Source of the DNA: an uncultured Endomicrobiia bacterium
GTDB lineage: Bacteria; Elusimicrobiota; Endomicrobiia; DTEH01
Direction of reading: 5' to 3'
DNA: 43,912 bases
NCBI GenBank assembly: GCA_937936785.1
Contig: CALDDQ010000002.1
Span: 125,192 to 169,103, forward strand
In this document: positions 16 through 12,453 of the stretch, in pieces
How the letters are laid out: every line of letters starts with the position of its first letter
Position numbering within the stretch: position 1 is the stretch's first letter
Position numbers and translations under genes: made by a program
The notes under the pieces: generated by a model
Seen by the model: only the letters and a program-made list of their open reading frames with translations
Databases searched by the model: none
What the model was told of the DNA's origin: nothing

Positions 16-564
16 ATGAAAAAAATATTGATAGATATAGAGAAATGTTATAGTTGTGAAAACATTAAGGATAAAAATGGTTGTGTGGCTAAATGTTCAT
101 ATTTTTACAACCATTCTCATGTTTGGAATGACAAACAAAGAGAAGAGTCTAAGAACAGAGGATATGAAAAATTTTTTTCAAAAGTATTACAATATATAAT
201 TTGTCGTAGGTGTGAAGACGCATTTTGTATTAGTAGTTGTCCTAACGAATCTTTGTTTAAAGACGATAAAGGTGTTTTACATAAAAGTTTGTTTAGATGC
301 ACTTCGTGTAAAAGTTGTATGATAGGATGTCCGTTTGGCACTATTTATGAAGAAGTTTTAGAGTTTAAAAGTTCGCAGTGCGATTTTTGTATTCCGAGAA
401 GGACAGATGAAAATCCACCTTTGTGCACAACAACATGTCCTGAAGGAGCAATAAAATATTTAGACATAGAACCGAATGAAAAAGAGAACATTTATCAGAT
501 AACAGATAATTTGCTTGTCCATGCAATAAAATGGGTTTTGAAAGAACCGGTAAATAGTAAATAG
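16..564 (+). CDS. Four-cluster [4Fe-4S] ferredoxin-like electron-transfer protein (HycB/CooF/HydN type)
   Basis: This 182-residue cytoplasmic protein has four cysteine groups: CYSC..C..C at the N-terminus, CRRC-x4-C-x3-CP, CTSC-x2-C-x3-CP, and CDFC followed by a spaced C-x3-CP. That is the layout of the HycB/CooF/HydN family, which carries electrons between a catalytic oxidoreductase and a hydrogenase. There is no signal peptide or membrane segment. It lies upstream of a group 4 [NiFe] hydrogenase operon with one small CBS gene between, so I infer that it feeds or drains electrons from that complex. No Shine-Dalgarno sequence is visible before the ATG. Its usual partner (formate dehydrogenase, CO dehydrogenase or another oxidoreductase) would lie left of the window. 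The family is clear; the partner is unknown. Confidence 0.85.
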   Translation: MKKILIDIEKCYSCENIKDKNGCVAKCSYFYNHSHVWNDKQREESKNRGYEKFFSKVLQYIICRRCEDAFCISSCPNESLFKDDKGVLHKSLFRCTSCKSCMIGCPFGTIYEEVLEFKSSQCDFCIPRRTDENPPLCTTTCPEGAIKYLDIEPNEKENIYQITDNLLVHAIKWVLKEPVNSK

Positions 565-669: not shown

Positions 670-1050
670 ATGTTAAAAGCAAAAGATGTTATGTCAACAA
701 AAGTGATTTCAGTCAGACCAGATACTACAGCATTAGATTTGGCACAAATTTTATATGAAAAACGGATCAGTGGTGTACCGGTCGTAGATGAAAAAGGTGT
801 TTTAGTGGGAGTGGTTTCGGAACGCGATTTGTTAAATTTAATTTTTAGTGGTAATGCAAATTCAACAAAAGTTTCTGAGATAATGACAAAAAATCCTATA
901 AGTTTTACTCCTGAAACAGAATTAGACAAGATTTCGTTAGCAATTTCGGAGCGAGGATTTAGAAGAGTTATAATAGTTGATAATGAGAATAAAGTTGTTG
1001 GTATAGTGAGTAGACATGATATAATAAAAATAATTCTAGAACAAAGATAA
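670..1050 (+). CDS. Tandem CBS-domain protein
   Basis: This 126-residue protein consists of two CBS domains and nothing else. The first is about residues 1-60 (starting KAKDVMSTKVISVRPDTTA, with GVPVVDEKGVLVGVVSERDLL) and the second about 66-126 (EIMTKNPISFTPETELD, with RRVIIVDNENKVVGIVSRHD). CBS pairs usually bind adenosine nucleotides and sense energy state. A good ribosome site (GGGAG, about 659-663) precedes the ATG. Its place between the ferredoxin-like gene and the hydrogenase genes suggests a regulatory role for that complex, which is inference. Stand-alone CBS pairs are also common without a known partner. Confidence 0.85.
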   Translation: MLKAKDVMSTKVISVRPDTTALDLAQILYEKRISGVPVVDEKGVLVGVVSERDLLNLIFSGNANSTKVSEIMTKNPISFTPETELDKISLAISERGFRRVIIVDNENKVVGIVSRHDIIKIILEQR

Positions 1051-1079
1051 ACGTATGTTGAAAAACAGATTTGTTTAAA

Positions 1080-2279
1080 ATGAAAAAAATATTTTTTATA
1101 ACAATATTTTTTATCAGTACTCTTTTTGCTGAAAAAATACAGATAAGAGTTGTTGCTTCTGATGACAAATTAGCTCGGTATATTGCGATTCAAGAAGCTG
1201 CATCAAAAGTTGGTCAAGAAGTGATTGTTGTTAGTGGAGAACAGATCCATCCTTCTAAAATTGAAAAGATTAGTATGATGTCTAAGTCATTATTGGGAAG
1301 AGATACTTATGAATATATTTTTTTAGTTCACACTAAGGATGATAGCATGAAATATTCTATTTTTTGGACAATAGATAAAATATTACCTTTATTTAACTTT
1401 TTAATTTTTCCTGGATTACTATTTTCAATTTTTTTTGCGTTTATAATAAGTTTCATAGATAGAAAACTTACAGCAAGGATACAATGGCGACAAGGACCAC
1501 CGTTATGGCAAGGAATGTATGATTTTATTAAACTTTTAGGGAAGGAAGTCTTAATTCCGTCCCGTGCACAAAAAACAATTTTTGTTTTATCTCCTATAGT
1601 AGGTTTTTCAATAACAGTTTTAGTTTCAACGATGTTATGGTTATACTTTTTTGTTCCAAAATACAGTTTTTCAGGAGATATAATCGTAGTTTTGTATTTA
1701 ATGACAGTTCCTGCAGTGGTTTATATGTTAGGAGCAAGTGCTTCAGGCAATGTTGTTGCTGGGTTAGGAGTTAGTCGTGAAATGAAACTTATGTTATCAT
1801 ATGAATTGCCTCTAATAACGGCAATTTTAGTCCCGGTGATAAAATCTTCCAGTATAAAAATTTTAGACATTATGCAAAACTCTTCACAACCAATTATTTT
1901 TAGTTTATCAGGATTTTTAGCATTTTTAGTTGCAGTGATAAGTTTTCAGGCAAAGATTGGTTTAGTACCATTTGACGCATCAGAGGCAGAGCAAGAGATT
2001 GCTGGAGGTATAACAATAGAATATTCAGGAATTTTGTTAGGACTAATAAAATTAGCGAAACAAATTTTGTATTCAATTGTTCCATTGTTTATAATAATGA
2101 CATTTTTTCCTGGTGGTGGATTATTAGTGGTTATTAAATATTTTATTGTGTTGCTGTTATTTGTTTTAATAAGAAATACAAATCCGAGATTAAAGATAGG
2201 TCAAAGCATAAATTTTTTTTGGAAAATAATTTTTCCTATAAGTTTGATTGCTATAATATTAGCAGTTTCAGGTAAATAA
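1080..2279 (+). CDS. mbhM: Group 4 hydrogenase membrane anchor subunit (MbhM/EchB/NuoH family) with an exported N-terminal domain
   Basis: From about residue 103 on this is a NuoH-family membrane subunit, which links the hydrogenase arm to the ion-pumping arm. It shows IDRKLTARIQWRQGPP and FDASEAEQEIAGGITIEYSG, both hallmarks of the family, and about eight hydrophobic helices. Ahead of that lie a clear signal-peptide-like stretch (residues 1-17, MKKIFFITIFFISTLFA) and about 80 polar residues (18-100) that I do not recognise. With 399 residues it is about 75 longer than typical NuoH. I chose the ATG at 1080 because the signal sequence starts there; an in-frame TTG at 1071 is possible. No Shine-Dalgarno is visible. 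It opens the hydrogenase module, 13 bases before mbhJ. Confidence 0.88.
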   Translation: MKKIFFITIFFISTLFAEKIQIRVVASDDKLARYIAIQEAASKVGQEVIVVSGEQIHPSKIEKISMMSKSLLGRDTYEYIFLVHTKDDSMKYSIFWTIDKILPLFNFLIFPGLLFSIFFAFIISFIDRKLTARIQWRQGPPLWQGMYDFIKLLGKEVLIPSRAQKTIFVLSPIVGFSITVLVSTMLWLYFFVPKYSFSGDIIVVLYLMTVPAVVYMLGASASGNVVAGLGVSREMKLMLSYELPLITAILVPVIKSSSIKILDIMQNSSQPIIFSLSGFLAFLVAVISFQAKIGLVPFDASEAEQEIAGGITIEYSGILLGLIKLAKQILYSIVPLFIIMTFFPGGGLLVVIKYFIVLLLFVLIRNTNPRLKIGQSINFFWKIIFPISLIAIILAVSGK

Positions 2280-2292
2280 TTTATTAAATTGT

Positions 2293-2709
2293 ATGGAAAT
2301 AATAAAAAAGTCGTTACTAAAATCTTTATGGGTGATGCATGCGCCGATGTCACCGTGTAACAACTGTGATATAGAAATTTTAGATGCGTTAACTCCAAGG
2401 TATGATTTAGAACGGTTTGGTATACAATTGGTTGGTTCAATAAGACATGCAGATGTTTTGTTAGTAAGTGGAGTGCCAAATTATAAGAATTACAAGAAAT
2501 TGAAATATCTGCTTGACCAAGCAGCAAAACCATGTTTTGTTGTGGGAGTTGGGACTTGTAGTTGTGGTCGTGGTATGTTTAAAGATTCTTACAACAGTCC
2601 GTGTAATGTTGACGATTTGGTAAAAGTTGATGCTTATATTCCTGGTTGTCCACCAAGACCTGAGGCAATTATTGCTGGTGTGGTAAAACTTATTAATGCA
2701 TTGAAATAA
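2293..2709 (+). CDS. mbhJ: [NiFe] hydrogenase small subunit, group 4 (MbhJ/EchC/NuoB family)
   Basis: This is the cytoplasmic small subunit that carries the single [4Fe-4S] cluster next to the catalytic subunit. Its 138 residues match the short group 4 form, not the larger uptake-hydrogenase form. Likely cluster ligands are C22 and C25 (PCNNCDIE), C89 (GTCSCGRG) and C119 (IPGCPPRPEAI). The CxxC arrangement separates it from true complex I NuoB, which has adjacent cysteines. It sits between the NuoH-like and NuoC-like genes. No upstream ribosome site stands out. Identification is firm. Confidence 0.93.
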   Translation: MEIIKKSLLKSLWVMHAPMSPCNNCDIEILDALTPRYDLERFGIQLVGSIRHADVLLVSGVPNYKNYKKLKYLLDQAAKPCFVVGVGTCSCGRGMFKDSYNSPCNVDDLVKVDAYIPGCPPRPEAIIAGVVKLINALK

Positions 2710-2728
2710 ATTTTTGGAGAATTTAAAA

Positions 2729-3163
2729 ATGAGTATAATAGAACAAGTAAAACAAAGTTTATCTGATAAAATAATAAGTATTGAAGAAAATAATAATTTA
2801 TTTAAAAAACGTTTTTATATAGAAGTTAAGAAAGAAGATGTTGTAGAACTAACAAAAATAATGTTTAAAGATCTTAAGTTTAGATTTATTACTGCTACTG
2901 CAACAGAATTAGAAAAATATTTTGAAATTGTCTACCATTACAGTTATGATAAAACAGGTGAAGTTGTATCTTTAAGAGTAAAGTTAGAAGACAAGTCCAA
3001 TCCAAGCATAGATTCTATAACACCAATTTTTATTGCAGCGGAATGGATTGAACGAGAAATGTGGGAACTAATAGGAATAAATTTTGTTGGTCATCCTAAT
3101 TTAAAACATTTGTTATTAGCAGATGACTGGCCAGAAAAAAATTATCCTTTGAGGAATAAATAA
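2729..3163 (+). CDS. mbhK: Hydrogenase 30-kDa-type subunit (MbhK/EchD/NuoC family)
   Basis: This small cytoplasmic subunit contacts the catalytic subunit. The diagnostic C-terminal run is WIEREMWELIGINFVGHP followed by LLLADDWPEKNYPLR, as in NuoC and its hydrogenase homologues. I place the start at the ATG at 2729, giving 144 residues, because a GGAG ribosome site sits at about 2716-2719. The in-frame TTG at 2714 overlaps that site and is unlikely to be used. The stop codon (TAATG) overlaps the start of the large-subunit gene by one base, which implies translational coupling. Confidence 0.9.
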   Translation: MSIIEQVKQSLSDKIISIEENNNLFKKRFYIEVKKEDVVELTKIMFKDLKFRFITATATELEKYFEIVYHYSYDKTGEVVSLRVKLEDKSNPSIDSITPIFIAAEWIEREMWELIGINFVGHPNLKHLLLADDWPEKNYPLRNK

Positions 3164-4353
3164 TGAAAAAAATTATACCAATAGGTCCATATCACCCACT
3201 ACAAGACGAACCTGAATTTTTTAAGTTATATGTAGAAGGAGAGAATGTTGTTGACATAGATATTGAGATAGGATATAACCATCGTGGTGTTGAAAAATTG
3301 TCTGAGACAAAACATTATGATCAAGTAACATTTTTAGTAGAACGAATATGTGGCATATGTTCAACTTCTCATCCATTTGCTTATGTTAATGCTATGGAAA
3401 ATTTATTAGGATTAGAAGTGCCTCTGAGAGCAAAATGTATCAGAACAATAGTCGGTGAATTGGAACGAATACATTCACACTTGTTATGGTTAGGTTTAGC
3501 AGGACATTTTATAGGTTATAACACAGTTTGGATGTGGTCATGGAAATATAGAGAAAATGTTTGCGATATATTAGAACTAATTTCGGGTAACCGCCAACAT
3601 TACTCAATGTTTAAAATTGGTGGTGTTAGGAAAGATATACCACAGGATTTAATTCCTGAAGTAGAAAAATTGTGTACTAACTTAGTTGCTGTTATAGACA
3701 TGTTTAAAGGAGCAGTTATGGATGATCCTGTGATACAGGCTCGTTTGAAAGGTGTAGGGGTTTTAACAAAAGAAGATGCAATAAATTATTGTGTAGTAGG
3801 ACCAACAGCTCGTGCAAGTGGTGTTGATATTGATGTTCGTAGAGATGATCCTTATGCAGCATATGGTATGATAAAATTCAATGTTATAGTATTACAAAAT
3901 GGTGATGTTTTTGACAAAGCAGTTGTGAGAATTTTAGAAATGTATGAATCAATAAAAATTATACAACAATGTTTAGATATTTTAAAAACAGAGAAAGGTG
4001 AAATCGAGATAAAGATACATTTTATACCAAAAGGTGAAGGTCTTGGCCGGCACGAAGCACCTCGTGGTGAAGTGTTTCATTTTATAAAATCCGATGGGTC
4101 AAATAGGCCTGTAAGACACAAAATTCGTGCTCCATCGTATATGAACGTTGCGTCTAACAAAGTTGCTGCTGTTGGGCAGACAGTTTCTGATGCTGCAATA
4201 ACTTTAGCTGCGGTAGATCCGTGTTATTGTTGTACAGAACGAGCAGTGATTTTGGATAGAAACGATAATATAATTTATAGATACAATGATTTAATAAAAT
4301 TATCTCAACAAAAAACAGAAGGACTAATCAAAAAATTGGTTAAACAAAAATAA
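3163..4353 (+). CDS. mbhL: [NiFe] hydrogenase large (catalytic) subunit, group 4 (MbhL/EchE/NuoD family)
   Basis: This subunit holds the Ni-Fe active site. Both ligand motifs are intact: L1 is RICGICSTSH (C63, C66) and L2 is DPCYCCTER (C354, C357), so it is a hydrogenase and not a complex I NuoD, which lacks these cysteines. An extra Cys (C356) lies inside L2. Thirty-six residues follow R360. Some [NiFe] large subunits have such a tail cut off after metal insertion, but no maturation protease or hyp gene is in the window. At 396 residues its length is normal for the group. Reduced ferredoxin is the expected electron donor for H2 formation, or the acceptor in the uptake direction. Confidence 0.94.
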   Translation: MKKIIPIGPYHPLQDEPEFFKLYVEGENVVDIDIEIGYNHRGVEKLSETKHYDQVTFLVERICGICSTSHPFAYVNAMENLLGLEVPLRAKCIRTIVGELERIHSHLLWLGLAGHFIGYNTVWMWSWKYRENVCDILELISGNRQHYSMFKIGGVRKDIPQDLIPEVEKLCTNLVAVIDMFKGAVMDDPVIQARLKGVGVLTKEDAINYCVVGPTARASGVDIDVRRDDPYAAYGMIKFNVIVLQNGDVFDKAVVRILEMYESIKIIQQCLDILKTEKGEIEIKIHFIPKGEGLGRHEAPRGEVFHFIKSDGSNRPVRHKIRAPSYMNVASNKVAAVGQTVSDAAITLAAVDPCYCCTERAVILDRNDNIIYRYNDLIKLSQQKTEGLIKKLVKQK

Positions 4354-4357
4354 ATGT

Positions 4358-5761
4358 ATGGAAGTTATGGATAACAATTTAGTAAACATAATTATTGCTG
4401 TTCCAATTCTTGGTTCAGTGTTAATTTTATTATTAAAAGAACGTGATTGGAACAAGATTTTATCATCAATCTTTGTTTTTGTAAGTTTTGTTTTAGTTGT
4501 GGTTTTATACTATAACTCTTTTAGTAATAATTTTAGTTTTCAGAAAGAACACAGGACTACATATTTATTTATAGACAATTATGCAATTGTTATGGCATTA
4601 GTTTCTTCGTTTATAAGTTTTTTAATTATATTATATTCATATAGTTACATGAAAAGTTATGATAGACAAAATGAATATTATTTTTATGTGACATTGTTCA
4701 TAGGTTCAATGTTAGGATTAATTTTTAGTTCAGATTTAATTTTAATGTACATTTTTTGGGAAATTACGTCAATATGTTCCTGGAAGTTAATAAGTTTTTA
4801 CAAAAAAGAACAACATATATTTGCTGCTAATAAAGCTTTTTTGATAACATTTTTAGGTTCTGCAATGATGTTATTAGGAATATCTATATTATTTGCAGAC
4901 CATAGAACTTTTAATTTAATTGATTTAAAAGGTCGGCGAATTTCAGATTTAGCTATGTTACTAATTTTTTGTGGTATGATTTCCAAATCTGCCCAGGTTC
5001 CATTTCATACCTGGCTACCAGAAGCAGGAGTTGCACCAACACCGGTTACTGCATTATTGCATGCAGCGGTATTGGTGAAAATAGGAGTATATACTTTTGG
5101 TAGAATTTTTGTTTTTACACTATTACCATCACCAGTTTTTCAAAATTTTGTTATGTGGTTATCATTGTTAACAATTTTATTTTCAGGACTGGTTGCTTAT
5201 GTAGAAAAAGACATAAAACGTATCTTAGCTTACTCAACGATTTCGCAGATAGGATACATTTTTTTAGGTTTTGCAACAAATGTTTATATAGGAATAATTG
5301 GTTCTATATTTTACATTGTTTCACATGGAATTGCAAAAGCAGGATTATTTCTTGCTGCTGGTGTGATAGAACATAATACGCACGAGCGTGACATAACAAA
5401 ACTTGGTGGTTTATATCATACCATGCCAATAACTTCAATAGCATTTTTATTATGTGCTATGTCAGTGATAGGATTTCCTTTATTAAGTGGTTTTTTTGCA
5501 AAATTTTTTGTAGTGAGTGGAATAGTAGCGAGTGGCAAAATTTTTATTGCTGTTGGAGCGATATTAGGTGCAGTTATAACAATGTTATATTTGTTAAGAG
5601 TTTATAATAAAGTTTTTTTAGGAGAAAAAAAGTTTGAAGTAAGAGAAGAAACAAAGATTATGTTGTTTGTGATAATTTTGTTAGGAATAATTTCTATAAT
5701 TTTAGGAATTTTTCCTCAAACAATAATAAATTTTTTAGTTAAAGATAGCAAACTTATATGA
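4358..5761 (+). CDS. Ion-pump subunit of hydrogenase complex (MrpD/NuoL/M/N family), first extra copy
   Basis: This 467-residue polytopic membrane protein is of the proton-conducting antiporter family. The conserved pair used for ion translocation is visible: E135 in YIFWEITSIC and K210 in ISKSAQVPFHTWLPEAG. A further lysine lies in ALLHAAVLVKIGVYTFGR. It starts 4 bases after mbhL and overlaps the next pump gene by 4 bases (ATGA). An ATG at 4367 is an alternative start. The Pyrococcus Mbh has one such pump (MbhH) plus MbhM, so this is an addition. Which ion it moves cannot be told from the sequence. Confidence 0.9.
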   Translation: MEVMDNNLVNIIIAVPILGSVLILLLKERDWNKILSSIFVFVSFVLVVVLYYNSFSNNFSFQKEHRTTYLFIDNYAIVMALVSSFISFLIILYSYSYMKSYDRQNEYYFYVTLFIGSMLGLIFSSDLILMYIFWEITSICSWKLISFYKKEQHIFAANKAFLITFLGSAMMLLGISILFADHRTFNLIDLKGRRISDLAMLLIFCGMISKSAQVPFHTWLPEAGVAPTPVTALLHAAVLVKIGVYTFGRIFVFTLLPSPVFQNFVMWLSLLTILFSGLVAYVEKDIKRILAYSTISQIGYIFLGFATNVYIGIIGSIFYIVSHGIAKAGLFLAAGVIEHNTHERDITKLGGLYHTMPITSIAFLLCAMSVIGFPLLSGFFAKFFVVSGIVASGKIFIAVGAILGAVITMLYLLRVYNKVFLGEKKFEVREETKIMLFVIILLGIISIILGIFPQTIINFLVKDSKLI

Positions 5762-7677
5762 ATATTATGATAATATTATTAATAGTTTTACCTTTAATCA
5801 TAGGAATTTTAATATTTTTTTTAAAAAAATTAGAATATTTATTAAGCATATTTACTTCTTTAATATTATTTTTATTAAGTATAAACCTATTATTTTTTGA
5901 AAATAGAATCGTGGAAATAAAGTGGGTGTCGGAATTTGGAATAAATTTTGTTTTTAATGCAGATTTATATTCGGTATTTTCAATAATTTTAGCTACATTA
6001 TTTGTTTTGTTGATAAGTTTGTATTCTGGTACCAAGAATTTATTTGTAGATAACACAAAAAAACACATTTATTTTTCGTTAATTATGATAAATTTAGGTA
6101 TAATAAATGGCATTTTTTTGTCTACAAATTTGGTAACATTTTTAATTTTTTGGGAACTTGCTGGTATAGTATTATACTTAGCAATAAGATTTTTAGCAAA
6201 GAAAGATAATGAAATAATTGCTACAAAAACTTTGTATATAACAGGTTTTGTAGATTTTTGTTTATTGTTAGGAATAATTATGTTGATAAAAATTTCTGGT
6301 ACTGTATCAATGAGGCCATTTAATTATATGTTAAATTCTCCATATACGATAACAATGTTTATTTTTCTTGTAATAGGTGCTTTAGGAAAAGTTGGTTCAT
6401 TACCATTTCATACATGGATACCATCGGCAGCAGAAAGAGTCCCGGTTCCAGTTGCAACATATTTAATATCTGTAGTTGACAAACTTTTAGGTATTTATTT
6501 GTTGTATAAAATTTGCGGTGAAATATTTTTGTTAAAACCAAATAATGGATTGATGATAATAGGACTAATAACAATAATATCAGCAGTTTTTATGGCTTTA
6601 GTACAGCATGATTTAAAAAAACTTTTGTCTTATCATGCAGTTTCTCAAGTAGGATACATGATTTTAGGTATAGGAAGTGGCACTGTGGTAGGGTTAGCTG
6701 GGGGAGTTTTTCATATGATAAATAATGTAATTTACAAGAGTTGTTTATTTTTATCTTGTGGATCTGTTGAGAGTATGACTGGTAATAGTGATTTGACTGA
6801 CAATGGTGGTTTGGCAAAATTTATGCCGATAACATTTATTACAACTTTAATTTCTGCGTTAGCAATATCTGGTGTTCCACCGTTAAACGGTTTTTTTTCA
6901 AAATGGATGGTTTATCAGGGTGTTGTAGAATCTTTTAGTAAGACTCATTCTTTAGTTCCTATACTATGTTTAATTGGTGCGATGTTTGGCAGTGCATTAA
7001 CTTTAGCCTCTTTTTTGAAAGTTGTATATTCAATTTTTCTTTCAAGTCCTTTAAATAAAAATGATAAAAGTGAAATTAAAGAAGTTTCGTTTAATATGTT
7101 ATTACCAATGATTTTTTTATCAGTTAGTTGTATAATACTTGGAGTATTTGCATTTGAAATTCCATTAAAACAAGTTATATATCCTATTTTATCATTTAGT
7201 AATATTATCACAAAGAATATTTTTAGTGGCAGTTGGCAACCTGTTATATCTACAGCATTAATTATATCAGGGATATTTTTAGGTGTGGTTATATATTTAA
7301 TTTTAAGTTTTAATAAAAGAAGTCGTTTAGTAAAAACTTATTTATACGGAGAAGAAGAAAAGTTTGAAGGAACGGTTTTGCCTGGAACCGATTTTTATAT
7401 TTCAATAACAGAGAAGGAACCTTTTGCCACGATATATTTTTTAGCAAGAAAAAAATTTTTTGATTTTTACAATTGGGCAATAGGATTAGTTGGCATGATT
7501 TCAAGATTACTAAAATTTTTGTTTGACAGAAAAATTTTTGATTTATATTATATAGGTAAAAAAATTGTTTTTGTGATAAGTAAATTTTTATCTTCATTAC
7601 ACAGAGGAAACTTACATGGTTATATGTCATGGATAGTGATAGGTCTGGCAATAATTTTATTATTTTTATTAAAATAA
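5758..7677 (+). CDS. Long NuoL/MrpA-type ion-pump subunit of hydrogenase complex, with a C-terminal extension
   Basis: This 639-residue membrane protein has the same pump fold: E133 in FWELAGIVLY and K211 in GALGKVGSLPFHTWIPSAA, then VDKLLGIYLLYK. After the roughly 14-helix core it carries a tail of about 130 residues with a cytoplasmic stretch (TYLYGEEEKFEGT) and a last hydrophobic helix after LHRGNLHGYMSWIVIG. That layout recalls the NuoL C-terminal lateral arm. I see no separate MbhI gene, so this tail could do MbhI's bridging job; that is inference. It overlaps the upstream pump gene at ATGA and is followed after 6 bases by mbhD-E. Confidence 0.9.
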   Translation: MNIMIILLIVLPLIIGILIFFLKKLEYLLSIFTSLILFLLSINLLFFENRIVEIKWVSEFGINFVFNADLYSVFSIILATLFVLLISLYSGTKNLFVDNTKKHIYFSLIMINLGIINGIFLSTNLVTFLIFWELAGIVLYLAIRFLAKKDNEIIATKTLYITGFVDFCLLLGIIMLIKISGTVSMRPFNYMLNSPYTITMFIFLVIGALGKVGSLPFHTWIPSAAERVPVPVATYLISVVDKLLGIYLLYKICGEIFLLKPNNGLMIIGLITIISAVFMALVQHDLKKLLSYHAVSQVGYMILGIGSGTVVGLAGGVFHMINNVIYKSCLFLSCGSVESMTGNSDLTDNGGLAKFMPITFITTLISALAISGVPPLNGFFSKWMVYQGVVESFSKTHSLVPILCLIGAMFGSALTLASFLKVVYSIFLSSPLNKNDKSEIKEVSFNMLLPMIFLSVSCIILGVFAFEIPLKQVIYPILSFSNIITKNIFSGSWQPVISTALIISGIFLGVVIYLILSFNKRSRLVKTYLYGEEEKFEGTVLPGTDFYISITEKEPFATIYFLARKKFFDFYNWAIGLVGMISRLLKFLFDRKIFDLYYIGKKIVFVISKFLSSLHRGNLHGYMSWIVIGLAIILLFLLK

Positions 7678-7683
7678 AAATTT

Positions 7684-8205
7684 ATGGATATAAATTTAGT
7701 AATTAAAATACTTTTAGTATTAATGATATTTGGTTCTATTGTAGCAATAGAAATTCGTGATTTATTATCTTCAGTGGTAAGTGTTGGTGCGGTAGGGATT
7801 ATTTTAACACTGGTTTTTTTATTATTGCAAGCGCCGGATTTAGCAATAGTACAACTTGTAGTAGAAATTCTTGCGTTGGTAATAATGATAAGAGCAACTG
7901 TTGTTCGTGATGAAACTGTTTATACTACAAAAGAATTCATAAATCGTGTGATAACGTTATTAGGAGTATTTGTTTTTATATATTTTGCAATTTTAGTATC
8001 CAAAGAATTACCTATGTTCGGTAATCCAAAATATAAAGTATCACAGTATTATGTAGATAACGCATTATTTGATACAGGTGCAACAAATGTTGTCTCTTCC
8101 ATAATATTAAACTATCGTGCATATGACACTTTAGGTGAAGCTGTGGTATTATTTACTGCGATAACAGGTGTGTTAACAGTTATGCGTAAAAAAGTGAAAA
8201 AATAG
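7684..8205 (+). CDS. Fused MbhD-MbhE subunit (C-terminal part of MrpA)
   Basis: This 173-residue membrane protein matches the two small domains that end MrpA and form MbhD plus MbhE in archaeal Mbh. The MbhD/DUF4040 signature is QAPDLAIVQLVVEILALV (about residues 55-73). The MbhE signature is TNVVSSIILNYRAYDTLGEA near the C-terminus. About five to six hydrophobic helices are visible. In Pyrococcus these are two genes; here they are one. The product should belong to the Mrp antiporter module between the pumps and the hydrogenase. Confidence 0.85.
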   Translation: MDINLVIKILLVLMIFGSIVAIEIRDLLSSVVSVGAVGIILTLVFLLLQAPDLAIVQLVVEILALVIMIRATVVRDETVYTTKEFINRVITLLGVFVFIYFAILVSKELPMFGNPKYKVSQYYVDNALFDTGATNVVSSIILNYRAYDTLGEAVVLFTAITGVLTVMRKKVKK

Positions 8206-8222
8206 TTTTTGTATATAAATAT

Positions 8223-8675
8223 ATGAAACAAAAGACTAATAAAGAAGGAATGACATTGATAGTAAAAACAATTACTAGATTAACGGTGTTGTTAATAGTT
8301 TTATATGCTATATATATAACATTACACGGTCATTTAACACCTGGTGGTGGTTTTGCTGGAGGAGTAATTTTAGCGTTATCATTTGTGCATGTAGTAATAG
8401 CTTTTGGGAAAGATTTCGTAATGAAAAAATTTTCTAAAGAAATTTTACCAATTTTAGAAAGTTTTGGAGGATTACTTTTTTTAATTATCGCAGTGTTAGG
8501 TTTTATAGGTGGATCTTTTTTTAAAAATGTCTTTGGTGTTGGAAAAAGTTATAATTTATTTTCTGCAGGACAAATTATGCCAAGTAATATTGCAATAATG
8601 TTAAAAGTAGGTTTTGGTATGTTTAGTGCATTTTTATGTTTAATATTATTTGTACACAAGGACGAGGATAAATAA
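8223..8675 (+). CDS. mbhF: MrpB/MnhB-family subunit (MbhF)
   Basis: This 150-residue protein has four hydrophobic helices and the MnhB signature HGHLTPGGGFAGGVILALSF near residues 38-57. It is a structural part of the Mrp cation/proton antiporter module. Its position after MbhD-E and before MbhG is the same as in Mrp and Mbh operons. The leader has no clear ribosome site, so translation may depend on coupling or on an unstructured AT-rich leader. Family assignment is firm. Confidence 0.9.
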   Translation: MKQKTNKEGMTLIVKTITRLTVLLIVLYAIYITLHGHLTPGGGFAGGVILALSFVHVVIAFGKDFVMKKFSKEILPILESFGGLLFLIIAVLGFIGGSFFKNVFGVGKSYNLFSAGQIMPSNIAIMLKVGFGMFSAFLCLILFVHKDEDK

Positions 8676-8678
8676 ATT

Positions 8679-9014
8679 ATGGTATATGTACTTTGTTTAA
8701 TACTATTTTTGGTTGGATTATATGGAATTTTAGTAAAAAAAAATGTTTTAAAGATTATAATTTCGTTTGCAATAATGGATTATGCGATAAACTTATTTTT
8801 TATTTTGGTTGGATACAAGAATGGAGCAAGTTTTCCAATTTTTATCAAAGGAAAAGAAAATGTTTTAATGGTAGATCCATTGCCACAAGCTTTAGTTTTA
8901 ACTTCTATAGTTATAGGTTTATCAATTACGATGTTAATGGTAGCAATAGCTATAAGGTTGTATGAAAAATATGGTACTTTTGATATTTCAGAAATAAGGA
9001 AGTTGAAAGGATAA
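8679..9014 (+). CDS. mbhG: MrpC/MnhC-family subunit (MbhG, NuoK-like)
   Basis: This is a 111-residue, three-helix membrane protein. It has the NuoK-like opening (LCLILFLVGLYGILVKKNVLK), then VDPLPQALVLTSIVIGLSITMLMVA, which is typical of MnhC. It starts 3 bases after mbhF and ends 4 bases before mbhH. In Mrp and Mbh complexes this subunit lies beside the MrpD pump and contributes to the ion path. Length and gene order are canonical. Confidence 0.9.
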   Translation: MVYVLCLILFLVGLYGILVKKNVLKIIISFAIMDYAINLFFILVGYKNGASFPIFIKGKENVLMVDPLPQALVLTSIVIGLSITMLMVAIAIRLYEKYGTFDISEIRKLKG

Positions 9015-9018
9015 AAAA

Positions 9019-10530
9019 ATGTTACCTTTATTTGTAATATTACCATTATTTAGTGCGTTTATAATTTCAATTTTTGGTCGTGTAAACAAATATTTTGGAG
9101 ATATTTTTGCGAATTTTACTAATATATTGTTAGTTTTTATATCTTTTTTAACCTTGTATCTACTAAACATAAACGATCTTTCAGCAATAACATATAACGT
9201 TGGTGGTTGGCGGTTACCAATTGGTATAACTCTTGTTGTGGACTATTATTCGGCATTGATGTTGATAATTATTAACCTGGTATCATTTTTTGTTTCGGTT
9301 TATTCGATATCTTATATGGAAAAATATACTGATAAAACAAAATATTATGTTTTGTTTATGTTAATGTTGAGTGGGATGAATGGAGTAGTAATTAGTGGAG
9401 ATTTGTTTAACATATTTGTATTTTTAGAGGTAGCATCAATATCGTCGTATTCGTTGGTAGCATTTGGAGTTGAGTCGGAAGAGTTAGAAGCAGCATTTAA
9501 ATATTTAGTTTTAGGGACAATTGCTTCAAGTTTAATTTTGTTAAGCATTGCAATAATTTATAGTTATGCTTCGAGTTTAAACTTGGCACATATTGCGTTG
9601 ATAATAAATAGATTACCGGTTGAAAAAGTTTTGTTAACAAAATTTGTTATTATATTGTTAATAGTAGGTTTTTGTATAAAATCTGCAGTAGTACCATTTC
9701 ATTCTTGGTTACCAGATGCTCATCCATCAGCGCCAGCACCTATTTCTGCAATGTTATCAGGTATATTGATAAAAACGTTAGGGATTTATACTATGACAAG
9801 GATAATTTTTAATGTATTTTTTGTTGGAGAAGATATATTTAAATTAGTTTATTGGTTAGGGATAGTTTCAATGTTAGCAGGTGTTATTATTGCATTATAC
9901 CAGTTAGATTACAAACGTTTATTGGCATATAGTTCAATAAGTCATGTAGGATATATTTTATTAGGAATAGGTTTAGGAACACCCCTGGGTATTTTGGGTG
10001 GAATTTTTCATTTATTAAATCACTCTGTTATTAAATCACTATTATTTTTAACCAGTGGGTCTTTAGAATATAGTTTAGGGACAAGAGATTTATTAAAAAT
10101 ATCACAGACAAATCAAAGACTTCCTATAACAAAATTTGCAATGTTAATTGGAAGTTTATCAATAAGTGGTGTTCCACCGTTTAACGGTTTCTGGTCAAAA
10201 TTAATAATAATAATAGCTTGTGTGCAGTCAAAGAAGTTGTTTGCTGGTTTTGTTGCTATATTAGTAAGTGTTTTAACATTATCAGTTTTTATAAAAGTTT
10301 TAAAATATGGGTTTTATAAAAAATCTTTAATTGAAGGTCAGGAACAAAAAAGCATAGAAGTTAAAGATGTTCCATTTTGGATGAAATTTTCAATGTTAGG
10401 GTTAGCACTATTATGTGTTTTTATGGGAATTTTGATTTTTCCTAACATAAGAGATGTTTTGTTAGTTCCAGCATCTGATATTTTAGCAAGGGGTTATGAG
10501 TATAGCAAAATTGTTTTTATGAACAAATAA
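9019..10530 (+). CDS. mbhH: MrpD-type ion-pump subunit (MbhH)
   Basis: This 503-residue, roughly 14-helix protein is the MrpD homologue in its canonical place between MbhG and MbhA. The translocation pair is E137 (IFVFLEVASISSY) and K221 (FCIKSAVVPFHSWLPDAHP); the numbering is nearly the same as the Glu/Lys pair described in Bacillus MrpD. The AHPSAPAPISAMLSGILIK stretch is also standard. It is the third pump-like subunit in this operon besides MbhM. An A-rich leader with a weak AAGGA precedes the ATG. Confidence 0.92.
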   Translation: MLPLFVILPLFSAFIISIFGRVNKYFGDIFANFTNILLVFISFLTLYLLNINDLSAITYNVGGWRLPIGITLVVDYYSALMLIIINLVSFFVSVYSISYMEKYTDKTKYYVLFMLMLSGMNGVVISGDLFNIFVFLEVASISSYSLVAFGVESEELEAAFKYLVLGTIASSLILLSIAIIYSYASSLNLAHIALIINRLPVEKVLLTKFVIILLIVGFCIKSAVVPFHSWLPDAHPSAPAPISAMLSGILIKTLGIYTMTRIIFNVFFVGEDIFKLVYWLGIVSMLAGVIIALYQLDYKRLLAYSSISHVGYILLGIGLGTPLGILGGIFHLLNHSVIKSLLFLTSGSLEYSLGTRDLLKISQTNQRLPITKFAMLIGSLSISGVPPFNGFWSKLIIIIACVQSKKLFAGFVAILVSVLTLSVFIKVLKYGFYKKSLIEGQEQKSIEVKDVPFWMKFSMLGLALLCVFMGILIFPNIRDVLLVPASDILARGYEYSKIVFMNK

Positions 10531-10534
10531 GTTT

Positions 10535-11047
10535 ATGAAAATTATAAAAAGTGTTTATAGCAAAATATTTTTATTTTTTGTTACATTAATTTTTTGGTTT
10601 TTACTAACAAATGTTTTTGACATAGATCATATAATTTCTGGTGTTTTAAGTTCAGGGATAGTAGTACTTTTAGTTGTAGATATTTGTTTGCAGGGCGAAT
10701 GGGAATTTTCTCGTCCGATAAAATATTTGTGGTTTTTTTATTATATTCCAATATTTCTCTGGGAAGTTATAAAAGCTAACTTAGATGTTGCATATAGGAT
10801 TTTAAGTCCAGATATGCCGATAAAACCTGGTATTGTTAAAGTTAAAACAAAACTAAAGAGTGATATAGGTTTAACTTTTTTAGCAAATTCTATAACTTTA
10901 ACACCTGGTACTATGAGTGTTGATGTTGACAAAGAAAATGGATATATTTATGTTCATTGGATTTATGTAAAAACAGAAAATGTAGATGAAGCAACGTTTA
11001 TTATAGTAAAAAAGTTTGAAGATGTTTTAATAAAAATATTTGGGTAA
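10535..11047 (+). CDS. mbhA: MrpE/MnhE-family subunit (MbhA)
   Basis: This 170-residue protein has two to three hydrophobic helices at the N-terminus and a cytoplasmic C-terminal domain holding FLANSITLTPGTMSVDVD, the hallmark of MnhE. It belongs to the Mrp half of the complex. It follows mbhH by 4 bases. Length is normal for the family. Confidence 0.9.
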   Translation: MKIIKSVYSKIFLFFVTLIFWFLLTNVFDIDHIISGVLSSGIVVLLVVDICLQGEWEFSRPIKYLWFFYYIPIFLWEVIKANLDVAYRILSPDMPIKPGIVKVKTKLKSDIGLTFLANSITLTPGTMSVDVDKENGYIYVHWIYVKTENVDEATFIIVKKFEDVLIKIFG

Positions 11048-11053
11048 AAATAA

Positions 11054-11389
11054 ATGAAAAGTATTAAATATTTTACATTTTTTATTTTGTTGATTGTTGG
11101 GTTATATTGTAATTTGACAATAAAAATGGATTTAATATTGAGATTTATAAATCCGTTAATATTATGTATAATTCTGTGTTTACACAGGATACTTTTAGGT
11201 CCAACACCGGCAGATCGTGCTGTTGCAGTGGACATATTAGGTCTTATGATAGTAGGTTGTTGTGGTTTAATTGCTTTGTTTACAAGGGTTAGTTTTTTTA
11301 TAGATATAGGAATTGCATGGGCGCTACAATCTTTTATTGGAACAATTGCGTTATCAAAATATTTAGAAGGAAGAAATTTAGATGAATAA
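11054..11389 (+). CDS. mbhB: MrpF/MnhF-family subunit (MbhB)
   Basis: This is a 111-residue, three-helix protein with the MnhF core RILLGPTPADRAVAVDILG. Its N-terminal hydrophobic stretch is a little longer than in many MrpF proteins (usually about 85-95 residues). It overlaps mbhC by 8 bases, which suggests coupled translation. Function is structural within the Mrp module. Confidence 0.88.
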   Translation: MKSIKYFTFFILLIVGLYCNLTIKMDLILRFINPLILCIILCLHRILLGPTPADRAVAVDILGLMIVGCCGLIALFTRVSFFIDIGIAWALQSFIGTIALSKYLEGRNLDE

Positions 11390-11717
11390 TTTATTAGGAC
11401 TGATATTTATTTCAATAGGTATTTTAGCAGATATTTTTGCTTGTTTAGGTTTATTACGATTTCCTGATGTTTATAACCGACTTCAAGTATCAACAAAATG
11501 TGTAACTTTAGGAACATGTGGGATTTTTTTTGGAGTTTTTTTAGAATCAGGTTTTACTGCGTTAGGAATAAAATCTTTGTTAATAATTTTGTTTATATTA
11601 CTTACATCGCCTGTTTCTGCTCATGCATTATCTCGTGCGGCACATAAGTCAGCAGTAAAATTATGTGAAAAAAGTGTTTGTGATAAATATAAAGAAGATG
11701 GTAATAATAAAGGTTAA
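11382..11717 (+). CDS. mbhC: MrpG/MnhG-family subunit (MbhC)
   Basis: This 111-residue protein has three hydrophobic helices and the family signature GLLRFPDVYNRLQVSTKCVTLG (about residues 21-42). It is the last gene of the Mrp block, in standard E-F-G (MbhA-B-C) order. The C-terminal tail is polar and basic. Identification is firm. Confidence 0.9.
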   Translation: MNNLLGLIFISIGILADIFACLGLLRFPDVYNRLQVSTKCVTLGTCGIFFGVFLESGFTALGIKSLLIILFILLTSPVSAHALSRAAHKSAVKLCEKSVCDKYKEDGNNKG

Positions 11718-11760
11718 AATTTTTAAACTTGTTTTTAATTTTATATTTTAAGTTGATTTT

Positions 11761-12453
11761 ATGAAATATCCAAAATTAAGAGAACTTAAAGAAGCAATAA
11801 AAGCTTTGATTAAAGGACCTTATACCATAAAATATCCTTTTGGTCCATTTACACCTGTAAAATCTTTTAGAGGAAAACCACAACCTTCACAACAAAGTTG
11901 TATAGGATGTGGTGCATGTGCAGAAGTTTGTCCAGTAGAAGCTATAAAGTTAGTAGATATTTATTCTCCAATAGTTAAAAGTTTGGATGTAGTAAACATA
12001 AAAACGACATGGGCAGATAATAGTGTTAACTCTGAACATCCAATGCGTACGCTGACATGGTATTATGACGAATGTATTTTTTGTGGACAATGTGAGCGAA
12101 ACTGTACTACAAGAGATGAAAATCCTCCTGGTGTAAAATTGAATCAAGAGTTTGATCTTGCTTGTGTGAATAGAAAAAATATCCGATCAGAAGAAATAAA
12201 AAAAGAGTTAGTTATATGTTCTAATTGTGGAACTATAATTTCTACAAAGGAACATTTGTTATGGGTTGCAAAACGTTTAGGGCCAAAAGTTTATGGAAAT
12301 ATAAATTTGTTAAATTTAATATCTAAAACATTTAATTCATTAACTACAGGAGTAAAATTTAAACAATTTGACCAGAGAGAAAATATGTTTGAACTTTTAT
12401 GTCCAAAATGTCGTAGAAAAATATTACTTTTCGATGAATATGGTAAAATTTGA
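11761..12453 (+). CDS. mbhN: 2x[4Fe-4S] ferredoxin-type hydrogenase subunit (MbhN/NuoI/HycF family) with an added zinc-ribbon-like tail
   Basis: This subunit passes electrons from ferredoxin to MbhJ. Cluster ligands are C47, C50, C53, C57 (CIGCGACAEVCP) and C105, C108, C111, C115 (CIFCGQCERNC). The second group is followed by TTRDENPPG in place of the usual proline. Beyond the clusters are two CxxC pairs, C153/C156 and C214/C217, that look like a zinc ribbon, as also seen in HycF/HyfH-like proteins. At 230 residues it is longer than archaeal MbhN. It ends the hydrogenase operon proper, 44 bases after mbhC. Confidence 0.9.
   Translation: MKYPKLRELKEAIKALIKGPYTIKYPFGPFTPVKSFRGKPQPSQQSCIGCGACAEVCPVEAIKLVDIYSPIVKSLDVVNIKTTWADNSVNSEHPMRTLTWYYDECIFCGQCERNCTTRDENPPGVKLNQEFDLACVNRKNIRSEEIKKELVICSNCGTIISTKEHLLWVAKRLGPKVYGNINLLNLISKTFNSLTTGVKFKQFDQRENMFELLCPKCRRKILLFDEYGKI

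Follow-up and report, generated by a model that had tools for sequence, protein, structure and literature searches.

We analyzed a stretch of 43,912 nucleotides (hereafter the window) from an uncultured Endomicrobiia bacterium of the Elusimicrobiota, located on contig CALDDQ010000002.1 (C2; the flanking locus is labeled L113) and containing an operon for a group 4 [NiFe] hydrogenase. The source genome, G000, is an AT-rich draft metagenome-assembled genome (MAG) of 1,557,867 bases in 25 contigs with 95.9% completeness, and the comparison genomes and loci are draft MAGs throughout. Fourteen adjacent, tightly packed genes on the + strand (1071-12453) encode, according to Pfam and NCBIfam, MbhM-J-K-L, the pump proteins P1 and P2, a fused MbhD-E, MrpB-G and MbhN, so that MbhJKLMN and a complete Mrp set are both present, as in Mrp-containing enzymes of groups 4d and 4g (Table 1). 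A first-pass annotation, made from the sequence alone, had described a group 4 [NiFe] hydrogenase with a full Mrp module, whose hydrogenase genes precede the pumps and Mrp genes, unlike in archaeal Mbh; all genes it named (Pfam/NCBIfam, CxxC motifs) and their order were recovered. The bounds it proposed, 1080-12453, do enclose the listed genes, but MbhM begins at 1071 and the operon starts earlier, with a diaphorase pair upstream of the window, a four-cluster ferredoxin and a CBS-domain gene. It had omitted the diaphorase module and, outside the window, what we consider the most interesting feature of this system: an apparent replacement of the hyp maturation genes.

MbhL is a NuoD-like large subunit, as is typical of group 4, and both of its CxxC nickel-ligand motifs are intact (RICGIC, DPCYCC). 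Its best PDB matches are Mbh (6cfw, 297 bits) and HycE (7z0s, 279 bits). An Ehr/Mbx-like enzyme lacking the NiFe site was ruled out by the intact Cys ligands. In a tree built by a quick method, with long outgroup branches, MbhL belongs to a well-supported clade apart from Pyrococcus furiosus Mbh, Escherichia coli Hyc/Hyf and Ech-like enzymes of the class. Its nearest named relatives are MAGs labelled Endomicrobia, followed by other Elusimicrobiota and Omnitrophota.

Maturation genes were sought over all 1,557,867 bases of G000 by profile searches and tblastn. Neither HypD, HypE nor HypF was found in G000 by profile search, and tblastn queries taken from E. coli and from relatives retrieved no HypB, HypD, HypE or HypF in the whole genome. 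HypA and HycI lie side by side on contig C3; PF01750 and the E. coli queries missed them, and both were detected with closer queries from relatives. Profile searches of other genomes found HypD/E/F all present in G001-G004, G011, G021, G024, G034, G038, G042 and G049, and all absent from G000, G005, G007, G008, G010 and G015. Within the family of G000, four sister genomes possess HypD. The sisters G001 and G004 have hypF after hycI-hypA, whereas alaS takes this position on C3 of G000. Likewise, in G001, G003 and G004 a gene of ~525 amino acids (aa), gene x, is followed by hypC-hypD-hypE and then by a two-gene block y (~253 and 340 aa), and G002 has hypC/D/E ahead of the same block with a different left neighbor. 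On contig C15 of G000, gene x runs directly into block y with an overlap of ~12 bases. Since both junctions are closed within sister synteny, hypF and hypCDE have been cleanly lost at two places. Compared with the canonical HypABCDEF set, G000 thus keeps HypA, HycI and, within a fusion, a HypC domain, but lacks HypD, HypE, HypF and a stand-alone HypC, which were excised.

The fusion is encoded on contig C10, directly ahead of a gene for the maturase HydG (not to be confused with the HydG/AsrB-like diaphorase subunit discussed below). Its HypC domain matches PF01455 (HupF_HypC, 4e-14) and retains the Met-Cys start, as in all fusions; its HydE domain scores 230 bits against Thermotoga maritima HydE and contains radical SAM and BATS domains, and the predicted fold of a homologous HypC-HydE fusion matches HydE. 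HydG aligns with Thermoanaerobacter italicus HydG at 542 bits and 54% identity and keeps all motifs (CX3CX2C, C-terminal CX2CX22C and the conserved His in GPHTISVPR). Both proteins are homologous to the [FeFe] maturases, and in HydG the cluster and His motifs are preserved. The system differs from HydA with HydEFG in that HydE forms part of a HypC fusion and the cassette occurs alongside a [NiFe] hydrogenase; a genome search of G000 found neither an [FeFe] hydrogenase (HydA), all three signature motifs being absent, nor a HydF-like protein. The composition of C10 matches the rest of the genome.

In L036, L049, L051, L102, L109 and G008, this operon is immediately followed on its downstream side by the same cassette; in G005 the two are ~18 kb apart, while in L076 HydG alone precedes the contig end downstream of the operon. 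It is often placed after hycI or hypA. In 16 other loci, hypF and/or hypCD occur near the operon, and none of the 25 loci carries both types (Fisher p ~5e-7, phylogeny ignored). The cassette genomes G005 and G008 have no HypD/E/F genome-wide by profile search. Mapped onto the MbhL tree, the cassette type must have changed at least three times, and well-supported branches require two of these changes. A large Omnitrophota clade (39 rows) includes six cassette loci and zero hyp loci. Eight of the nine HydGs form one clade (support 100/98) that excludes two [FeFe]-type HydGs.

Table 1. Genes of the hydrogenase operon and of the maturation cassette. Positions without a prefix refer to the window.
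Feature	Position	Strand	Evidence or remark
HydB/AsrA-like iron-sulfur (FeS) protein	L113:16149-17192, just upstream of window		domain search
HydG/AsrB-like flavin NAD(P)H reductase	L113:17230-18054, just upstream of window		domain search
HycB/CooF-like 4Fe-4S protein, 182 aa, 16 Cys	16-564	+	Pfam Fer4_11/Fer4_7; PDB relatives NarH, FdnH, HycB
CBS-domain protein	670-1050	+	Pfam CBS 1e-33; at this place only in closest relatives L033, L034
MbhM/NuoH membrane anchor	1071(1080)-2279	+	Pfam NADHdh 3e-59, residues 115-395
MbhJ, small subunit, NuoB-like	2293-2709	+	Pfam Oxidored_q6
MbhK, NuoC-like	2714-3163	+	Pfam Complex1_30kDa
MbhL, [NiFe] catalytic subunit, RICGIC...DPCYCCTER and C-terminal extension	3163-4353	+	Pfam, PDB, motifs
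P1, optional HyfD-like pump, 467 aa; E135, K210, K241, K382	4358-5761	+	Pfam/NCBIfam, alignment
P2, NuoL/MrpA-like pump with lateral helix, 639 aa; E133, K211, K242, K382	5758-7677	+	Pfam/NCBIfam, alignment, AlphaFold, Foldseek
MbhD+MbhE fusion, corresponding to MrpA C-terminal part	7684-8205	+	Pfam MbhD, MbhE
MrpB/MbhF	8223-8675	+	Pfam MnhB
MrpC/MbhG	8679-9014	+	Pfam Oxidored_q2; NCBIfam
P3, MrpD/MbhH pump; E137, K221, K252, K394	9019-10530	+	Pfam/NCBIfam, alignment
MrpE/MbhA	10535-11047	+	Pfam MNHE
MrpF/MbhB	11054-11389	+	Pfam MrpF_PhaF
MrpG/MbhC	11382-11717	+	Pfam PhaG_MnhG
MbhN, 4Fe-4S subunit, extra C-terminal Cys pairs, HycF/HyfH-like	11761-12453	+	Pfam Fer4; NCBIfam PRK12387 86 bits, below cut-off
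hypC-hydE fusion, 430 aa	G000 C10:8005-9297		N-terminal HypC domain and HydE domain
hydG (maturase)	G000 C10:9301-10677		3 bases after hypC-hydE

With regard to electron entry, the diaphorase pair shows the domains of AsrAB/sulfhydrogenase diaphorases, namely Fer4_22 in the beta subunit and FAD, NAD and DHODB FeS domains in the gamma subunit, with scores below the NCBIfam equivalog cut-offs. The 16 Cys of the adjacent ferredoxin are expected to bind four clusters, and this protein may serve as an electron wire joining diaphorase to hydrogenase. Neighbors of MbhL were counted in 49 named relatives with at least 4.5 kb of upstream sequence and in 38 with enough downstream sequence. A four-cluster ferredoxin precedes MbhM in 49/49, and the reductase lies within 4.5 kb of MbhL in 47 of them and further upstream in the remaining two (L034, L092). 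Because these genes travel with the operon, electron entry from NAD(P)H would be the simplest reading. Alternatively, the hydrogenase could be driven purely by ferredoxin, as in archaeal Mbh, with the diaphorase pair acting separately; P. furiosus Mbh accepts ferredoxin through MbhN alone, and POR and Rnf are encoded in G000. We regard this as doubtful, given that almost all relatives with sufficient flanking sequence keep the diaphorase pair and the four-cluster ferredoxin together with the operon. On contig C14 (3641-11769), 2-oxoacid ferredoxin oxidoreductase genes are directly followed by an Rnf operon. Separately, a V/A-type ATPase K subunit on contig C12 (57810-58283) has PGTQG and VETY motifs like those of Na+-type rotors, which suggests Na+ bioenergetics.

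The membrane arm was described in the first-pass annotation as having two pumps in addition to MbhH. Three intact pump proteins are indeed encoded, which belong to three old, distinct families by sequence comparison, and each retains the Glu of transmembrane (TM) helix 5 and the Lys of TM7 exactly as annotated (E135/K210, E133/K211 and E137/K221). Only P1, which groups with E. coli HyfD and occurs in 9/38 relatives, is an extra pump, and it is optional. P2 is found in 38/38. Its AlphaFold model (predicted local distance difference test, pLDDT, 87.5) has a 45-residue lateral helix (570-614) and a last TM helix, and the best Foldseek match by E-value is MrpA (7qru_A). P2 and the MbhD-E gene together thus look like a split MrpA, which makes P2 a component of the Mrp module and not an additional pump. 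Since this pair has the place and fold of MrpA, the membrane arm would consist of one full Mrp unit joined by a single HyfD-like pump. The absence of a stand-alone MbhI, also reported previously, was confirmed with the open reading frame list and Pfam, and the predicted lateral and last TM helices of P2 are present instead.

It had further been suggested that additional pumps could mean a higher ion-to-electron ratio, in this case through three equal units. The intact Glu and Lys residues of all three proteins speak for this view, but Glu133 of P2 is atypical of its family, being Gly in 59/64 aligned relatives, so that equal pumping by three units is not to be assumed; P1 is missing from most relatives, and P2 with MbhD-E takes the place of MrpA with its fold. 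With the P2 Glu mostly replaced and P1 mostly absent, the core machine works without them, and we consider equal pumping unlikely. A three-pump machine was accordingly dropped as the main novelty, since P2 with MbhD-E behaves as MrpA and the optional P1 recurs elsewhere. Shorter operon versions, MbhL followed by a P2-like pump and MbhN with Mrp genes absent, were observed in L061, L080, G024 (L015) and G042 (L014).

Archaeal Mbh has a single pump (MbhH), Mrp genes first, a separate MbhI and no diaphorase. P. furiosus Mbh (6CFW) has all Mbh subunits and the Mrp module and is the closest solved relative of MbhL, but its MbhL lies well outside the clade of G000, and the present operon has neither a separate MbhI nor leading Mrp genes. 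E. coli hydrogenases 3 and 4 (Hyc/Hyf) are formate-linked, have no Mrp module and are matured by HypA-F; the HycB-like ferredoxin, HycF-like MbhN, HyfD-like P1 and HycI protease resemble theirs. The gene order found here is common to dozens of Elusimicrobiota and Omnitrophota loci, and identical order in dozens of independent contigs excludes chance. Mrp genes and MbhN follow downstream in 36 of the 38 relatives. An identical gene set (asrA, asrB, cooF, Mbh, Mrp) was reported in 2019 from Saganbacteria RX5A, where the consulted passages term it enigmatic and place the nearest relatives of its group 4 hydrogenase in Omnitrophica (PMC6349859). That region additionally has a molybdopterin oxidoreductase, whereas a genome search found no molybdopterin enzyme in G000; maturation is not taken up in those passages. 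Mrp-linked group 4g enzymes assigned by HydDB have also been reported in Omnitrophota (PMC8542988), again [NiFe] group 4 enzymes with Mrp genes in related phyla; the passages on these enzymes make no mention of a diaphorase, an extra pump or maturation. The complex therefore belongs to a known, widespread but uncharacterised type, and the pumps are not the novelty. The novelty of subunit content that had been considered largely disappears, given the RX5A precedent and a clade in which ferredoxin (49/49) and Mrp with MbhN (36/38) are shared.

Taken together, we put at roughly 0.66 the probability that the operon encodes a membrane-bound, ion-coupled group 4 [NiFe] complex with a diaphorase whose NiFe center is matured via HydG and HypC-HydE in place of the excised HypCDEF. 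The replacement is suggested because the hyp genes are excised, neither an [FeFe] hydrogenase nor HydF is present, and the cassette adjoins the operon elsewhere and never co-occurs there with hyp genes. In this complex, the diaphorase pair (FAD and FeS) and the four-cluster ferredoxin would bring NAD(P)H electrons to the NiFe site of MbhL, with ferredoxin possibly joining as a donor through MbhN. MbhM would relay the redox change to the membrane arm (split MrpA, MrpB-G and the optional P1), and the complex would most likely evolve H2 in fermentation, reversibly. For maturation, tyrosine would be the source of CO and cyanide, which HydG would generate on iron; the resulting Fe-CO/CN unit would then be processed by the HydE domain and passed to MbhL by the HypC domain. 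Nickel insertion by HypA and C-terminal trimming of MbhL by HycI would follow. In the maturation of [FeFe] hydrogenases, HydG is known to derive CO and cyanide from tyrosine (PMC3105041), and its role is also stated in PMC9431212. We further consider it probable that this tyrosine-based supply with a HypC-HydE scaffold is a new [NiFe] maturation pathway, broadly distributed among uncultured Elusimicrobiota, Omnitrophota and relatives and swapped with the classical route several times.

Several points weigh against this interpretation. HydG yields Fe(CO)2(CN) and the [NiFe] site contains Fe(CO)(CN)2, so the ligand ratio must change by an additional step. The conserved His of HypC is Gln in all eight fusions, although this would fit delivery without HypD. 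The HydG of L102 falls outside the HydG clade, and G007, G010 and G015 have an intact MbhL of this clade and no HypD/E/F, yet the portions of them that were read revealed no HydG. The genome-wide loss of hyp genes refers to G000, G005 and G008, whereas for L036, L049, L051, L076, L102 and L109 the comparison covers the surroundings of the operon. Finally, it is by gene linkage that the diaphorase would be assigned to the hydrogenase.

The main rival explanation is that the Fe-CO/CN cofactor assembled in MbhL by HydG and HypC-HydE is of another kind, which would make the complex something other than a normal [NiFe] hydrogenase. The product of HydG in [FeFe] maturation would agree with this, as would a changed site indicated by the Gln in HypC and the extra Cys in DPCYCC. 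It appears improbable because HypA (nickel insertion) and HycI (a nickel-dependent protease) are retained and because sister genomes whose MbhL falls in this clade and has the identical motif rely on classical hyp genes. A mere assembly gap at the hyp genes, with the cassette serving an unseen [FeFe] hydrogenase or lying on a contaminant contig, is conceivable for an incomplete draft MAG but highly improbable, and was rejected, as both excision sites lie inside long contigs with conserved flanks, C10 has the composition of the genome, G000 has neither [FeFe] hydrogenase nor HydF, and the cassette adjoins the [NiFe] operon in other genomes.

No report of HydG or HydE in [NiFe] maturation was found in the open-access literature, and earlier reports elsewhere are possible. 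If replacement by HydG and HypC-HydE holds, a tyrosine lyase replacing exactly the Fe(CN)2CO branch would be one concrete source of CO and cyanide, two maturation systems held to be separate would become joined, and a small gene set would be at hand for producing [NiFe] enzymes. Missing hyp genes would then not imply that an active [NiFe] hydrogenase is missing.

Some minor features were also observed around these genes. The CBS-domain gene is inserted between the ferredoxin and MbhM and could have a regulatory role. MbhM has an N-terminal extension of ~105 aa (window 1071-1400), consisting of a signal-like stretch and a soluble part, which only L034 shares among the relatives checked. Near the cassette, a gene for a ThiF/MoeB-like protein separates hycI from hydG at one Omnitrophota locus (L036:18024-18800). 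Directly 3' of hydG (L150:10709-11206) lies a gene for a ferredoxin-thioredoxin reductase beta-like protein with a rubredoxin domain, a possible electron donor for radical SAM maturases.

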